Assembly: GCA_017853885.1 (NCBI GenBank)
Contig: JAFMIR010000002.1
Span: 124,001 to 188,000 of the forward strand
Reading direction: 5' to 3'
DNA length: 64,000 nt
Source of the DNA: Prosthecobacter sp.
GTDB lineage: Bacteria > Verrucomicrobiota > Verrucomicrobiia > Verrucomicrobiales > Verrucomicrobiaceae
Shown here: positions 8,532 through 24,389 of the stretch, piece by piece
Position numbering within the stretch: position 1 is the first letter of the stretch
Layout of the letters: every line of letters starts with the position of its first letter
Program-made: the position numbers and the translations under genes
The notes under the pieces: generated by a model
Seen by the model: the letters and a program-made list of their open reading frames with translations, nothing else
The model's database searches: none
Told to the model about the DNA's origin: nothing

Positions 8532-10004
8532 TCAGACGGGAGAAAGTGTTGTCTGCTCTTGGTTAACCAAGGCTTCGCATATCATGATGGGCTTGGCATG
8601 CCGATACGGCAACGACTTCAAATTGCTGCTACACGGCCCCGGCGTGTCCACCCAGAGCATGCGTGTGGCGATTTTGTCATAGGCGCGGCGGTGGGCCACG
8701 GCAGCTTTGACGGCGACAACGCTCAATTGCTCTAACGCGATACCTTGGCTGTGCCATTGACCGAGGTCGAAGGGTGGCGTCTTGACGCTAGTGATCAGGA
8801 TGGTGAGGCCTAAGTGCTTCACAACGGCGCAGCGGCCCATATCGAAGAAATCGCCGCACATGCTGGCTAGGTGGCTGTTTTTGTCTTCGAGTTCAAAAAG
8901 ACCGTCCTTGAGACTTATGAGCTCTACTTCGAGCTCAACGGGACCTTCATCAAGACGTGAACCTTTGCCGCCGAGACGGATGCAGCGTTCGCCTGCTTCG
9001 AGAGCACGCACCGATTCGGGGTCAGCGATGCAGATGGCGGCGTTATGGATACGATGCCGAAAAAGTGCACGCAGCAGGCCAGTGCAATCACCTGGCGCCC
9101 CACCGCCTATGTTGTCCGAGGGCTCGACGAGCACGGTGAGCCCGGAGGGCAGGGGATTCAGCCCCGCGACCACTTCATCCGCAGGTGGATCGGTGACGAG
9201 GCCGAGGTGGTTCAGTTCATGTGCCTTCGCTTCGATTTGTGCGAGATGCAGATAAGCATCACCCGTCGTGCAAGCTACAAAGCTTACGCCAGTGTCTGGT
9301 GTGTCGGCAAAGCTAAAGCCTGCGACCACGTTCATTGCCCACAGCGTCTCGTCTGATGCTTCCAACTGCCGTGCGAGTGTTTCGAGGCTTTGCATCGGAT
9401 CATTGGCAGTGCCTGTGCCGGTGGGTGGCCAGATGAGACCCGGCTGCATGATCTGCATTTTTGGGCGTTGATCGGTGCTGAAGTGGCGCATCAGCAGTCG
9501 TGCGGCGATGAGCGCGGCTTCTCTGGCATCGGTGTGCGGGTTCTCGCGGTAACCTACGAGGCAGTCGGCGAATGTGGCCATCTTATTCGAAAAGTTCGCA
9601 TGAAGATCAAAGACACCGAAAATGGGCACATGCGTGATGGCGCGGATGCGCTGGAGGATCTCACCCTCGACATCGAGGATAGTCTCCGAAGTCATTGCAC
9701 CATGCAGGATAAGGTAAATGGCATCAAAGTTTTCGTTTTGCAGGCATGGCTCTAGATCGTTCCAGAACTGGTGAATGACCTTGTCGGCAACGGTGGCAGA
9801 TGGCTGCGCTCGATAGTCGATTGCCGGAACGATGTGCCAGTGGTTGTCTGTGGCGAATTCGAGCACGCCACCAAGCGGCGAGGCATCCCCTCTGCAGTCG
9901 AGCAACTCCTCACCACGGCGGATCTGAAAGTCAGTCAGCGTGGTGAGACCATCAAGAAAAGTATGCGTCTCGTGGAAGAGACCTGCGAGAAGAATTCGTG
10001 GCAT
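8532..10004 (-). CDS. M81 family metallopeptidase (MlrC-like)
   Basis: 490 residues. The N-terminal domain has GLFHETHTF at about residues 8-16, then LILHGAMTSE, and FGVFDLHANFS, which supply the His/Asp zinc ligands of the MlrC (microcystinase C) family. The C-terminal half has DNIGGGAPGD and a conserved Gly-rich sheet region. Family members cleave small peptides; MlrC finishes linear microcystin breakdown, but most homologues have unknown substrates. No signal peptide is seen, so it is probably cytosolic. It starts nine bases after the end of the L,D-transpeptidase gene, so the two are likely cotranscribed, which hints at recycling of cell-wall or dietary peptides. Confidence 0.9.
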   Translation of the reverse strand: MPRILLAGLFHETHTFLDGLTTLTDFQIRRGEELLDCRGDASPLGGVLEFATDNHWHIVPAIDYRAQPSATVADKVIHQFWNDLEPCLQNENFDAIYLILHGAMTSETILDVEGEILQRIRAITHVPIFGVFDLHANFSNKMATFADCLVGYRENPHTDAREAALIAARLLMRHFSTDQRPKMQIMQPGLIWPPTGTGTANDPMQSLETLARQLEASDETLWAMNVVAGFSFADTPDTGVSFVACTTGDAYLHLAQIEAKAHELNHLGLVTDPPADEVVAGLNPLPSGLTVLVEPSDNIGGGAPGDCTGLLRALFRHRIHNAAICIADPESVRALEAGERCIRLGGKGSRLDEGPVELEVELISLKDGLFELEDKNSHLASMCGDFFDMGRCAVVKHLGLTILITSVKTPPFDLGQWHSQGIALEQLSVVAVKAAVAHRRAYDKIATRMLWVDTPGPCSSNLKSLPYRHAKPIMICEALVNQEQTTLSPV

Positions 10005-10013
10005 GGCGCTACA

Positions 10014-10979
10014 TTAACGCACTATCACGGTGGTTCCTGGCCGGATGAGCGAAGGAAGGCGGATGGCATCCCAATTGGCGAAACGGACACATCCCGCACT
10101 TCGGGAACGGCCGATGGTGCGGGGAAAAGCAGTTCCGTGGAGGCCGATGCCGCTTTTGCTCAGGCCACACCAGATGATGCCGATGGGGCTGTTCGGCCCC
10201 GACGGAAGCTGATAGGCTGCTTCACCTCTTACACCCTCTTCCAAAAATTGCTTGTCATAGCGAAAACTGGGAGTGGTCATCATGTTGTTCACCGTCCATG
10301 ATCCGAAAGGAATGAACTGTGGTTTCCCAGGTGTGATCGGAAAGGCGGCGATCATTATTTCATCGACATTGTACACAATCCCCATGCGTTCATAGGTGTC
10401 GATGACCATAGTGTTGCTGCTTAGCTGCCTGTCTTTTCGAAAAGTCTGCATGGGCTTTACATCTTCGATTTTGAAAGGTGTGATATTTGGTACGATGATC
10501 ACCTCACCCTCGACCATCGAATCGATGTTCTTTTTGGGATTGATCTTGGAGAGAAACGTTTCGTCTGTATGGAAACGCTCAGCTACGAGCTCCGATAGGC
10601 TGCGGTAGCTCATAAAGGAAAATTCGGCTTGTTTGGCAGGATCATTAGGCAGGTCTTTATTGATAAATTTGAACAAATCCTCCGTCACTTTGAAGGCGGC
10701 GAAGATTACTCGCACCTCTTGCTGCGCCGCAGCCTCCACTCTGGCCCAATCTTGGAGTTTGCTATGGCCTTTTGCGAAGTTGTAATTCACCACAGCCTTA
10801 TGAGTGAATTCGCCGATGGTTCCATCAAGTTTGCCTGGGCTGAAGAGGTTTTTATCTAGGAAGATCTGGATTCGTAGCAAGGTATCACGATCCTTCGGTG
10901 CCGAAGTATGGTTCTCCGGTTCGCTATAGGCATGAGCAATTGCAAGCGTGCTGAAGCAAAGGAAAACCGACAGGTGCAT
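10014..10979 (-). CDS. L,D-transpeptidase (YkuD) with peptidoglycan-binding-like domain
   Basis: 321 residues. A signal peptide (MHLSVFLCFSTLAIAHA) is followed by a helical peptidoglycan-binding-like segment at about 33-70, a LysM-like stretch at about 125-165, and the YkuD catalytic domain at 185-321. Catalytic residues are His281 (GIGLHGTAFP) and Cys297 (GRSRSAGCVRF), where most relatives have SHGCIR. The enzyme makes 3-3 cross-links or anchors protein in the periplasmic cell wall. It starts 12 bases after the protease/SirB1 gene and ends nine bases before the M81 gene, which suggests one transcript. Confidence 0.9.
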   Translation of the reverse strand: MHLSVFLCFSTLAIAHAYSEPENHTSAPKDRDTLLRIQIFLDKNLFSPGKLDGTIGEFTHKAVVNYNFAKGHSKLQDWARVEAAAQQEVRVIFAAFKVTEDLFKFINKDLPNDPAKQAEFSFMSYRSLSELVAERFHTDETFLSKINPKKNIDSMVEGEVIIVPNITPFKIEDVKPMQTFRKDRQLSSNTMVIDTYERMGIVYNVDEIMIAAFPITPGKPQFIPFGSWTVNNMMTTPSFRYDKQFLEEGVRGEAAYQLPSGPNSPIGIIWCGLSKSGIGLHGTAFPRTIGRSRSAGCVRFANWDAIRLPSLIRPGTTVIVR

Positions 10980-10991
10980 GGCTTAGACATC

Positions 10992-13202
10992 TCACTCTTC
11001 GCGAAGGGATTGCATCCAACGGTCGAGCTGCTGGATGAGCTCGGGTGGACCGTCGTCGGGAAAGTTTTCGATCAACCAGCTCACGTCCTCTCGCGCGGCG
11101 GCCTTTTCACCAAGGCGCTGACGCAGTTGCGCACGCGTAAGACGCTCGGCGGCAGCCTTGGGATCGATGGCTAGCACGAGGTCAAGGTATGGCAGGGAGT
11201 CACGGATGGAGCGGGTCTCATCAAAAGTGGTGCCCAGCAAGTTGCGCAGCATGCGGAGAAGAATGTCACGCTTTGTGGCGGGTGTCAGTGATTCCTCCTC
11301 GAATTCACCGCTATCGGTGAGCTGGAGTGCTGCTTGCTCAACGGTGAGCTCCTTGCCATTCTCAAACACGTCAACGAGCTTTAATTCACCTTCGGGTCCG
11401 TCACGGTAGCCTACCATAAATTTGCCTGGCAATGGCACCCCAAACACTCCCTGCACACCGAGGCGCGCCGCGAGCTCGATGTAGAGCACACTTAGGGTGA
11501 TTGGAAGACCTTCTCGATCATCCAAGACTTCGTTCACGTAGCTGTTGCTCCGGCTCTGGTAGTCGCCTCGGCTGCCATGAAAGCCATTTTCCTCGAATAG
11601 GTAGCGGTTCAGGCGTTGCACGGCGGATAAAGTGTCTTTCTTGATCTGCGGATCGTCTTTTAAGTCGGTGATCATCAGATTGAAATCGTTTAGGTAGGAG
11701 CTCACATCGAGCTCGGTATTGTCATGACGGGAGAGCAGCAGTGTGCAGCGCAGTAGATTGATCTGTGGTTCCGGCTTTTTGATTTCAGCGAGGATCTCCT
11801 TGGTAATGGCACGACGGTGCAGCTCACGATCAAGTTCACGCAACTTCGACGCTTCGTCCTCAAGCTGCTTGCGCTGCTCTGCGATGATGCGGCGCGCAGC
11901 AGCGGGATGGTCGAGCAGCTTTTCGAGTGTCTCAGGCCGTGTTGAGGTGGCTGTAAGGTGCGCCTCGAGCTCATTGCGGAATCGGGTGGCGAGTTCGGGT
12001 TCGACCGGTTTTTCGGACAAATCGGTTCCGAGGCGGAACGCACGAAAGTCAGCTGTCGTATTGCGAAATTTGCACAGTCCGACTAATCCGTTCCTTAGCC
12101 CGGTGTCTTCCGTTTCGATGGCTTTTTTGCCGTTGACGAAGCAAGTGATCTTTCCTGGCTCTACTCTCACTCTTAGCGCATTCCACTCACCGGGTTTGTA
12201 GGCTTCACTCGGCACATCGGCTAGGATACTCCAAGAGTACACATCCGGTCCATCAAAGCGGGTGAGCCTCAGTTTACCGCCGGAGGGGTAGAAACCGTAA
12301 TGCTTATCCGCTCCATCTGAGCAGAAGGCAAGGCCAGCAGCGCCGCTTTCGTCATCGAGCTTCACTGTTGCGGCCACTTCGAAGGAACCCTCCGGCACTT
12401 TTTGCGCTGAAAGACACAGCGCACGCCCGCCGAAACCATTGCCTGGCAGCTGCGCACGAACTACGCCTGCATGCTGTGTCCACTGGGATCCAAGATGAAT
12501 TTTCCAGAGCTTGGGATTAAGAACGCCGATGGTTAGCCAACGACTCATAGGCACTGGATTGGGCTTTTCGATCAACTCCTTCAATGCGTTCACCGGCATG
12601 GCAAAGCCTAGGTTCTCGGTCTTGATGTGCTTCAGAGTAAGCAGACCGAGAACCTTACCCTTCATGTCAAGTAAAGGTCCGCCGCTGTTGCCTTTTTCGA
12701 TCGGAATGGCCACTTGAAGCATGTCGTTTCCATCGATCTCACGCGTGGCAGATAGCACGCCCTGCACGATGCTGAAGCCTAGCCCCTCCGGTGCACCCAT
12801 TGCGACAACACTTTCTCCCTGTCTCACTTTGGCTGAGTCTCCCAAAGACAGCGGTTTTAGACCTTTTGCATTGATTTTGAGTAGGGCTAGATCACGATGT
12901 GCGTCGGTAGCATGGATGGTGACGACCTCGTGTGTCTTGCCATTGAGCATCTCAACTTGGAGACGACGTGCTTCACCGATGACATGCAGGTTCGTGGCAA
13001 TCAATCCATCATCGCTAACGATAAAGCCTGAGCCGATGCCGTCTGTGCCTTCACGACCGATCTGCGTGATCTTCACCAAAGCGGGCGCGATGCCTTCTGC
13101 AAGGTCCGCAGCGGTTTGCGTCTTAGGAGCGGTAGGTTTGCTTTTCGCGTGCAGTGTTCCCGTAAGCAGGATGGCGAGCAATACAAAGGGGAGAGACTTC
13201 AT
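10992..13202 (-). CDS. Secreted trypsin-like protease / lectin-like / SirB1 fusion
   Basis: 736 residues. A signal peptide (about 1-19) precedes a DegP-like S1C protease domain (30-215) with the full triad His73 (TNLHVIG), Asp104 (HRDLALL) and Ser173 (GNSGGP). Residues about 225-392 look like a LamG/DUF1080-type jelly roll. Residues about 480-620 match the SirB1/transglutaminase-like family (NSYVNEVLDDREGLPITLSV, then GVPLPGKFMVGY), followed by a TPR-like C-terminus. SirB1 relatives usually have PGHF; here it is PGKF, so this domain is probably not catalytic. There is no PDZ domain. It is the first gene of the run ending at 1128. The combination suggests a periplasmic protease with added binding modules; the substrate is unknown. 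Confidence 0.85.
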   Translation of the reverse strand: MKSLPFVLLAILLTGTLHAKSKPTAPKTQTAADLAEGIAPALVKITQIGREGTDGIGSGFIVSDDGLIATNLHVIGEARRLQVEMLNGKTHEVVTIHATDAHRDLALLKINAKGLKPLSLGDSAKVRQGESVVAMGAPEGLGFSIVQGVLSATREIDGNDMLQVAIPIEKGNSGGPLLDMKGKVLGLLTLKHIKTENLGFAMPVNALKELIEKPNPVPMSRWLTIGVLNPKLWKIHLGSQWTQHAGVVRAQLPGNGFGGRALCLSAQKVPEGSFEVAATVKLDDESGAAGLAFCSDGADKHYGFYPSGGKLRLTRFDGPDVYSWSILADVPSEAYKPGEWNALRVRVEPGKITCFVNGKKAIETEDTGLRNGLVGLCKFRNTTADFRAFRLGTDLSEKPVEPELATRFRNELEAHLTATSTRPETLEKLLDHPAAARRIIAEQRKQLEDEASKLRELDRELHRRAITKEILAEIKKPEPQINLLRCTLLLSRHDNTELDVSSYLNDFNLMITDLKDDPQIKKDTLSAVQRLNRYLFEENGFHGSRGDYQSRSNSYVNEVLDDREGLPITLSVLYIELAARLGVQGVFGVPLPGKFMVGYRDGPEGELKLVDVFENGKELTVEQAALQLTDSGEFEEESLTPATKRDILLRMLRNLLGTTFDETRSIRDSLPYLDLVLAIDPKAAAERLTRAQLRQRLGEKAAAREDVSWLIENFPDDGPPELIQQLDRWMQSLREE

Positions 13203-21770: not shown

Positions 21771-24389
21771 TCAGGTTTCAGGAGCCGAAGGCTCGTCAGA
21801 TTCAGCCACCAGTGGAGTTTCCGCAGTTACATCTTCCTCATCGGATATCACAGTGGCAACATCCTGAATTGTTTCGCCCTCATTGAGGGTCATTAGTTTG
21901 ACGCCTTGGGCGTTGCGGCCCGTTTCGCGAATCTGGCTGACCTTGATGCGCACACTCTGCCCCTTGCTGGTCATCAGCATGAGCTCATCGCTTTCCTTAA
22001 CTGCCAAAGCGGCTACGACCTTGCCTGTTTTTTCGGTGACATTCATCGTAGTGACCCCTTTGCCCCCCCGATTGGTGAGAAGACGGTATTCATCAAAGCT
22101 TGTGCGTTTGCCAAGACCATTCTCGCTAACAACCAAGACCATTGTATCTAGCTCATTCGTAATGCAACTGACCAGAAAGTCCTCTGCATCGAGCGTGATG
22201 CCGCGCACGCCAGCCGTTGCACGTCCGATAGGGCGCAGATTGGGAAACTCAGGATCGTGACCCGTTTCATGAAAGCGGGCACACATGCCTTCATGTGTGA
22301 CAAGACAAATCTCCTTGTTGCCATCAGTCAGAACTACATCGACCAAGTCATTTTTTTCATCGAGTTTAATGGCGATGATGCCATCCTTACGGTAGTTTTT
22401 AAACTCCTCTAAAGCTGTCTTTTTGACTGTGCCGTCTTTAGTGGCAAAAAGGACAAATTTGTCTGCAGCCCACATGGCTTCGTCCTCAGCTCCTTGGGCT
22501 TTCAGGATGAGCACGCTGGCGATTTTTTCCTCGGGGCGGAGGTTGAGCACGTTTTTGATGCTGCGGCCTTTGCCGGTGCGGGTGGCCTGCGGGATCTGAT
22601 AAACGCGCTCGACATACATGCGGCCCGTGTTCGTGAAGAAGAGCAGGAAATCGTGTAGCTGGGCGCTGAAGAGATGCTCGACGAAGTCGTCGGCGTCCTC
22701 CTCGCTCTGTGCCTCGCGGGTTTCCATGCCCTTCAGTCCCTTGCCGCCGCGGCCTTGTAGGCGGTATTCGGCTGTGGGCGTACGCTTGATGCTGCCCAAG
22801 TGCGTCATGGTGACGATGGCGGCCTCGTTCGGGATGAGGTCCACGCTTTCGATATCACCGGAGACCGCCTCGATGCGCGTGAGGCGCGGTGTGGCGTGCT
22901 TGGCCTTGATGACATTCAGCTCGTCTTTGATGATCGTGAGCACGCGGTGCTCGTTCGCGAGAATGTCGAGCAGGTCCTTGATGGTGGCGAGGATGGCGTC
23001 GTACTCGGACTTCACCTTGTCGCGCTCCATGCCGGTGAGCTGGTAGAGGCGGAGCTCGAGGATGTCATCAACCTGCTTGTCGGTGAAGACGTAGCGGCTG
23101 TCCTGGATGCTCGGCTGGCTGCGAATGAGGATGCCGAGCTGCTCAGCGGTGGTCACAGAGAAGCTGTAGGCCTTCAATCCGGCGCGGGCCTCGTCGCGGT
23201 TGTGGCTGTCGCGGATGATCTTGATGAAATGATCGAGGTGACCTAGCGCGAGGAGGAAAGCTTCGAGTTTTTCGGCCTGCACCTCGGCTTTGCCGAGCAG
23301 GAACTTCGTGCGGCGGATAATGACCTCACGGCGATGCTCGATGTAGCAGCCGATGGCGTCCTTGATGCCGAAAACGCGCGGACGATTCCCGTCGATGGCG
23401 AGCATGTGGACACTGAAGGAGGATTCCAGCTCAGTGTGCTTGTACAAATTGTTCAGCACCACCTGTGCACGCGCGTCTTTCTTCAAATCGACGACGAGGC
23501 GCGAGTTCTCATCGGACTCGTTTCGCACGCCGCTGATCTCCGGGATGATTTTTTCGTTCGCGAGCTCGGCGATCTTCTTTTCGAGCTCCGCGCGGTTCAC
23601 GTTGTAGGGGATCTCGGTGATGACGATTTGCTCGCGGTTACCGTTTTCGACGATTTCGGCTTGGCCGCGGATGCGCACGCTGCCGTGGCCAGTTTCCATG
23701 TATTCGCGGATGCCCGTGGTGCCCATGATGGTGCATCCCGTCGGGAAATCGGGGCCTTTGATGTGCGCCATGAGCTCCGGCGTGGTGATCGCTGGATTGT
23801 CGATCTGCGCGCAAACCGCATCGACGACCTCGCCGAGGTTGTGAGGCGGCATATTCGTCGCCATACCGACAGCGATGCCGGTGCCGCCATTGACGAGTAG
23901 GTTCGGAAAAGCTGCGGGGAAGACGGTGGGCTCGGTGAGACGTTCGTCGTAGTTCGGGACGAAATCGACCGTGTCCTTGTCCATGTCCTGCATCAAAGCG
24001 CCCCCGAGGTGCGTCATGCGAGCCTCCGTATAACGCATGGCCGCCGGAGGATCGCCTTCCACGCTACCGAAGTTCCCCTGCGGATCGATCAAGGTCTCCC
24101 GCATGGCCCATTCCTGCCCCATGTGCACCAGCGTCGGGTAAATGACCGCCTCGCCGTGTGGATGGTAGTTACCCGAGGTGTCACCCGCGATCTTGGCGCA
24201 CTTCACATGCTTCTTCGGCGGGTAGAGTGAAAGCTCATGCATCGCGTAAAGAATACGACGCTGGGAGGGTTTGAGACCGTCTCGGACATCCGGCAGGGCG
24301 CGGGAGATAATGACGGACATCGAGTAGTCGAGGAAGCTGTTCTTTACTTCGTCGGCGACCGAGATCGGGCGTGTGATGGAATCTTGCAT
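21771..24389 (-). CDS. gyrA: DNA gyrase subunit A
   Basis: 872 residues. It breaks and rejoins DNA and, with GyrB, introduces negative supercoils. The winged-helix/tower domain includes the catalytic Tyr120 ([11 protein letters not shown]). The C-terminal beta-pinwheel has the GyrA box, here QGRGGKG. The quinolone-determining region reads [11 protein letters not shown]: the positions matching E. coli Ser83 and Asp87 are Ala81 and Pro85. The C-terminus is acidic ([18 protein letters not shown]). It follows gyrB by 46 bases on the same strand, so both are likely cotranscribed. Confidence 0.98.

Follow-up and report, generated by a model that had tools for sequence, protein, structure and literature searches.

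How does an HtrA-type protease choose its substrates when it has no PDZ domain? The question is raised by a single gene of Prosthecobacter sp. that lies on the reverse strand of the window, which is the whole stretch of 64,000 nucleotides that was analysed. The gene encodes a 736-residue protein in which a protease domain is followed by a jelly-roll and a SirB1 domain. The answer put forward here, tentatively and as a little short of probable, is an exported, PDZ-less HtrA-type protease that would recognise substrates through two other modules, a glycan-binding jelly-roll and a menin-like SirB1-TPR scaffold. The parts of the gene are as follows.

10992..13202, reverse strand: whole gene, 736 aa, HtrA-type protease, jelly-roll and SirB1/TPR (open frame, ATG start, Pfam)
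13143..13202, reverse strand: signal-peptide-like N-terminus, residues 1-20 (sequence, hydrophobic core)
12564..13115, reverse strand: S1C/HtrA-type protease domain, residues 30-213 (Trypsin_2 2.8e-30; HtrA1/HtrA2 structures; fold match)
12984..12986, reverse strand: catalytic His73, invariant in 64/64
12891..12893, reverse strand: catalytic Asp104, invariant in 64/64
12684..12686, reverse strand: catalytic Ser173 (GNSGG), invariant in 64/64
12021..12557, reverse strand: jelly-roll, DUF1080/levanase-module-like, residues 216-394 (PF06439, levanase profile match, all-beta model)
11763..12020, reverse strand: weakly conserved linker that includes a long helix, residues 395-480 (conservation and model)
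11238..11762, reverse strand: SirB1/Transglut_core2 domain, residues 481-655 (PF13369 6.6e-35; model pLDDT 93.2; menin fold)
10995..11237, reverse strand: C-terminal TPR helices, residues 656-736 (TPR_9 6.1e-7; model helices; 47/48 members)

Pfam divides the protein into Trypsin_2 (residues 57-187, 2.8e-30), 3keto-disac_hyd, also known as DUF1080 (272-390, 1.4e-7, above the cut-off), Transglut_core2 (520-653, 6e-34), and TPR_9 (670-718, weak), with a further match to Laminin_G_3 (0.0012). Trypsin_2, DUF1080, and Transglut_core2 are matched in the same order in all 48 members scanned, including those at only 41% identity, and TPR_9 is matched in 47 of them. The first-pass annotation had read the gene as a protease with a full triad and no PDZ, joined to a LamG/DUF1080-like domain and a SirB1 domain. 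Pfam, the predicted structure, and the 48 relatives agree with it. That annotation was without the signal-peptide-like start, the C-terminal TPR region, and the long helix before SirB1, all of which are added here. In the predicted structure, the long helix bridges the jelly-roll and SirB1. The full-length model has a pTM of 0.69, a moderate confidence in domain placement. Mean pairwise identity among 48 sequences is 0.585 for the jelly-roll, 0.578 for the protease, 0.496 for SirB1, 0.375 for the TPR region, and 0.299 for the linker.

The N-terminus resembles a signal peptide, and a hydrophobic N-terminal core (mean KD >= 1.6, a lenient scan that was the same for both groups) is present in 78 of the 80 fusions with a full N-terminus versus 5 of 23 standalone SirB1 proteins. 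The fusion protein is therefore most likely exported. Export, if true, would be unusual for a SirB1 domain.

The protease part is closest in sequence and fold to HtrA1/2, DegP, and DegS. HtrA2 and HtrA1 are the nearest solved sequences (E about 1e-31), and the model superposes on HtrA1 (3tjn) with a Z of 29.0 and an rmsd of 2.9 A over 189 residues, at 41% identity in the superposition. HtrA chains fill the list of the fold search with the full model, which is thus uninformative for the jelly-roll. The full catalytic triad reported at first pass is borne out, with H73, D104, and S173 kept in all 64 members compared. Judged by these residues, the protease should be active. The absence of PDZ also holds; no PDZ family is matched by Pfam up to an E of 1 in the 736-residue protein, and none is among the Pfam families listed for 48 fusion members. 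The NCBIfam HtrA, DegS, and Do models cover the protease part only and score far under their cut-offs (Do, 141.1 bits vs 416.2). As for a defence system, the PADLOC matches are limited to the protease component of the RT-Protease and PDC-M35A models.

The protein shares with the HtrA/Deg proteases (MEROPS S1C; DegP, DegS, HtrA1/2) a protease domain with the H/D/S triad and a signal-like start. Unlike them, it has no PDZ, falls under the Do cut-off, and carries two other modules after the protease. HtrA-type proteases that have no PDZ exist, so a substitute for PDZ is not required. A comparable pairing is the S1C-NTF2 unit of RsgI9 (7sjy), which also joins an HtrA-type domain to a non-PDZ partner but differs in partner domain and organism. 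RsgI9 is placed in a substrate-sensing family (PMC12203970).

Gene neighbours offer little guidance. A YkuD L,D-transpeptidase gene (window 10014-10979, same strand) starts 12 bases downstream of the fusion gene, and an M81/MlrC-type peptidase gene (window 8532-10004, same strand) follows it after a 9-base gap. Relatives of YkuD adjoin 10 of 40 fusion loci and those of M81 adjoin 9 of 40, all of them near relatives of the window. When 482 neighbouring ORFs from 60 loci were clustered, the largest cluster was found in 12 loci. An operon logic was therefore set aside, as YkuD and M81 are kept in near relatives only and no cluster exceeds 12 of the 60 loci. With no widely shared neighbour, no pathway is indicated and the context gives no function. 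Promoter and terminator scans at the locus were within chance.

PF13369 (Transglut_core2) scores 117.2 bits against a cut-off of 23.5 and is matched in 48 of 48 members. The NCBIfam SirB1 model PRK10941 aligns to residues 488-724 (7e-13) at 48.6 bits vs an equivalog cut-off of 391. Predicted alone, the SirB1-TPR half has a pLDDT of 93.2 and a pTM of 0.86. Human menin is its first Foldseek match (E 9.8e-4, probability 1.00). In a structure comparison, menin occupies the first 39 rows (about 240 residues aligned, Z falling from 15.8 to 14.4). The first row that is not menin is a TPR protein with a Z of 10.7 over 70 residues. The best menin superposition (Z 15.8) covers 239 residues at an rmsd of 5.0 (4-5 A across rows) and about 10% identity. 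Structure prediction had been suggested as a check on the domains, and it returned an all-beta jelly-roll and a SirB1-TPR half that folds confidently, with menin as the best match. In a viral fold library, the best match to the same half is a giant-virus (Solivirus) protein, BFVD A0A3G5AFW4, with a Foldseek E of 1.4e-4.

Menin (MEN1), the best solved fold match, has the same make-up, namely an inactive transglutaminase-like domain with TPR helices. A sequence-based search with the SirB1-TPR half did not find menin. Given this and the identity of about 10%, the match is a likeness of fold, with homology not shown. Two further points stand against the menin reading: TPR helices raise such fold scores, and the Foldseek E is only about 1e-3. 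According to PMC10318531, menin is a eukaryotic scaffold without a catalytic Cys, the function of Transglut_core2 is stated as unknown, and the Transglut_core2 domain of FBXO21 is inactive. The title of a structure paper in its reference list gives MLL and JUND as ligands of the menin pocket. The earlier suggestion that the SirB1 domain acts as a peptide-binding scaffold gains from this fold match and from what PMC10318531 says of FBXO21 and menin. On the strength of the model, the domain is likely a non-enzymatic scaffold, and peptide binding is what we infer from the likeness. A broader reading is possible, if rather doubtful. SirB1 proteins in general would be the prokaryotic counterpart of menin, a dead transglutaminase with TPRs that holds peptides, placed here in an exported HtrA with a glycan-binding module, so that a menin-like pocket replaces PDZ.

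The SirB1 domain of the fusion has its own conserved residues, along with one position where the family varies.

11718..11723, reverse strand: Asp494-Asn495, fusion-specific (80 and 80 of 83 fusions vs 0 and 2 of 23 standalone)
11568..11579, reverse strand: HGSR motif, residues 542-545, with H542, S544, and R545 fusion-specific (H 81, S 79, R 80 of 83 vs 4, 2, 2 of 23 standalone)
11511..11519, reverse strand: DRE motif, residues 562-564, with D562 and E564 fusion-specific (D 80, E 83 of 83 vs 0, 0 of 23)
11475..11477, reverse strand: Glu576, fusion-specific (80/83 vs 0/23 standalone)
11421..11423, reverse strand: Lys594, the PGKF residue (His 35, Lys 29, Arg 17, Gln 2 of 83 fusions; His 21/23 standalone)

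At eight positions, then, one residue is near-fixed among the fusions (79 to 83 of 83) but seldom seen in the standalone proteins (0 to 4 of 23). That charged and polar positions are kept across two phyla while the linker stands at 30% identity suggests a specific contact. Chance fixation on the stem of the clade may also be their source. When the full model was superposed on HtrA structures, the last aligned residue fell at 541-565, in or beside this patch, in 26 of 50 cases, each with a chain 272 residues long or longer. From alignment end points and a model with a pTM of 0.69, there is a hint that the patch may lie near the start of the next HtrA domain.

These residues also bring in the best-surviving alternative, which we consider unlikely. 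Here the protein would be a sensor. The jelly-roll would bind sugar, the SirB1-TPR half would clamp the protease, and the ligand would switch proteolysis on; the SirB1 patch would dock the protease, and there would be no peptide site. The PDZ domains of DegS provide such a switch, as ligand binding to them turns proteolysis on. Near-fixed, fusion-specific residues are expected of an inter-domain interface, the superposition end points fall in or beside the patch, and RsgI9 is another case of an HtrA-type domain with a non-PDZ partner. The same eight residues could make a ligand site, however, and the superposition evidence consists of first and last aligned residues in that moderately confident model. 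No regulator gene is linked among the neighbours of 40 and 60 loci.

Alone, the jelly-roll matches PF06439 at 9.8e-9 (36.0 bits vs a cut-off of 26.8). PF06439 is matched at E <= 0.01 in 48 of 48 members, and some relatives score under the Pfam cut-off. Residues 216-394 are all-beta in the full model, at about 90 pLDDT. The family profile of the jelly-roll matches three levanase-module structures (4azz/4b1l/4b1m) with E from 1.5e-7 to 1.9e-7, over positions 26-167, or 142 of the 179 positions of the profile. The match to DUF1080 hydrolase structures is weaker and partial (3.7e-4 over 49 positions), and the jelly-roll is therefore read as a binding module. We take the levanase module to be CBM66. 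CBM66 binds fructan. The jelly-roll is as conserved as the protease (0.585 vs 0.578), which favours a specific ligand over a passive linker. The first-pass annotation had proposed that a binding module directs the protease to polysaccharide; the levanase-module match is consistent with this, and the jelly-roll is best described, from profile likeness, as a putative glycan-binding module. For the wall targeting also suggested at first pass, the adjacent YkuD gene offers little, being kept in only 10 of 40 loci. The jelly-roll differs from the known levanase and DUF1080 domains in being set between a protease and SirB1, and the likeness is one of sequence profile.

The same PF06439 match, which exceeds its cut-off, could instead mean that the jelly-roll is a 3-keto-glycoside hydrolase and the protein a two-enzyme periplasmic machine. 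A 3-ketotrehalose hydrolase is among the single-domain DUF1080 proteins that have been characterised (PMC9007349). This is very improbable, as the profile is closer to the levanase module than to the DUF1080 hydrolase structures and no widely recurring neighbour cluster lies beside the fusion.

Enzymatic activity can also be asked of the SirB1 domain. By our own reading of the fold, the catalytic Cys would be expected at the start of the core helix, in columns 565-570, and none of the 83 fusion rows has a Cys there. His594 is replaced in 48 of the 83. The domain is therefore no Cys-His enzyme. The annotated lack of the PGHF His is correct for this protein, where residue 594 is Lys; among standalone SirB1 proteins, His is retained in 21 of 23. 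The proposed conservation of the PGKF Lys was not found, as only 29 of 83 fusions have Lys. A special role for Lys594 was accordingly rejected; it is one of several substitutions, and a tree of 66 members requires at least 6 events between His and another residue at this position. In that tree, the clade holding the window's family, f1, has His594 in 0 of 29 rows. E. coli YchA/SirB1 has PTQL instead of PGHF, with Gln for His, so loss of the His is neither special to the fusion nor SirB1-defining. YchA and FBXO21 share Transglut_core2 with the fusion, and in YchA a TPR region follows as well. They differ in that those examined are standalone or have more TPRs, whereas a distinct set of fixed residues and a signal-like start mark the fusion.

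A new active site might have been built from H542, D562, E564, and E576, which 80-83 of 83 rows share and which either adjoin in sequence, or sit on, the helix expected to carry the old one. The fold matches, however, are to a probably inactive scaffold (PMC10318531), and no enzyme with the H542/D562/E564/E576 set was found. We regard a new site as highly unlikely.

The fusion is a real and recurrent protein family without a name. A GTDB scan gave 23 fusion loci, and a search profile was built from 20 of those loci and the relatives of the window protein. With it (E <= 1e-80), the fusion was identified in 91 of the 141 genomes from the window's order. The matches fall in three family groups (f1, f62, and f63), with one copy each except for one genome with two partial pieces, and no f2 genome in this search has a match. 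A draw of 337 genomes across the window's phylum gave 7 with a match, all f1. It is without the fusion-bearing f62 and f63 genomes, so it understates the order. A second phylum, probably Planctomycetota from the title of one of its loci, has the fusion in 21 of 294 genomes; in 20 of these the match spans at least 690 of the 727 model positions. All four parts are present by Pfam in 3 of 3 proteins scanned there. Restriction to Verrucomicrobia, which had been raised at first pass, is thereby ruled out. On the 66-member tree, a single change separates the verrucomicrobial rows from the planctomycetal ones, at low branch support (35). The fusion also occurs in MAG records under the title Akkermansia muciniphila, which are scattered across the tree; these titles may be wrong. 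A chance fusion or assembly error has nothing found in its favour and is ruled out by recurrence in 91 of 141 and 21 of 294 genomes.

Among the frames examined in both phyla, no half-built fusion or intermediate architecture was seen. The jelly-roll model gave 4 matches in 194 genomes of the window's phylum, all in the fusion, and in 199 second-phylum genomes 14 of 15 matches were in fusion-length frames and one in a 378-aa frame. SirB1 matches occur in 83 of 149 second-phylum genomes. Ten long frames from these were examined; two carry SirB1 without a protease, as read from the translation, and eight carry SirB1 with TPR arrays, to which one adds HEAT repeats and a cyclase-like region. In the window's genome, another contig holds a separate SirB1 gene of the standalone type (22582-23016), in which PGHF is intact; this genome therefore has both forms. 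No description of the fusion was found by title or abstract start in the open-licence PMC literature, within which it is not previously described. This agrees with the earlier remark that no named family has this domain order.

In the mechanism proposed, the jelly-roll would bind a glycan or glycosylated surface and anchor the protease there. The SirB1-TPR half, a dead transglutaminase fold, would hold a segment of a client or a regulatory peptide in the manner of menin. The held peptide would allow a substrate to be presented to, or gated for, the protease. The biological role may be quality control or processing of envelope proteins. If true, this would be a PDZ-free way for HtrA-type proteases to choose substrates.

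A tie between SirB1-type domains and proteolysis recurs, loosely: SirB1 and Transglut_core2 are both named in a domain-map legend of a study of a plant Clp protease system (PMC8889267). Members of the Transglut_core2/SirB1 family occur in E. coli and, as FBXO21, in humans, and the covalent joining to a protease offers a direct way to approach the family. Should the SirB1-TPR half deliver peptides to the protease, this could be assayed in one polypeptide, and the same role would be suggested for SirB1 and for FBXO21, which mediates ubiquitylation of EID1 (PMC10318531).
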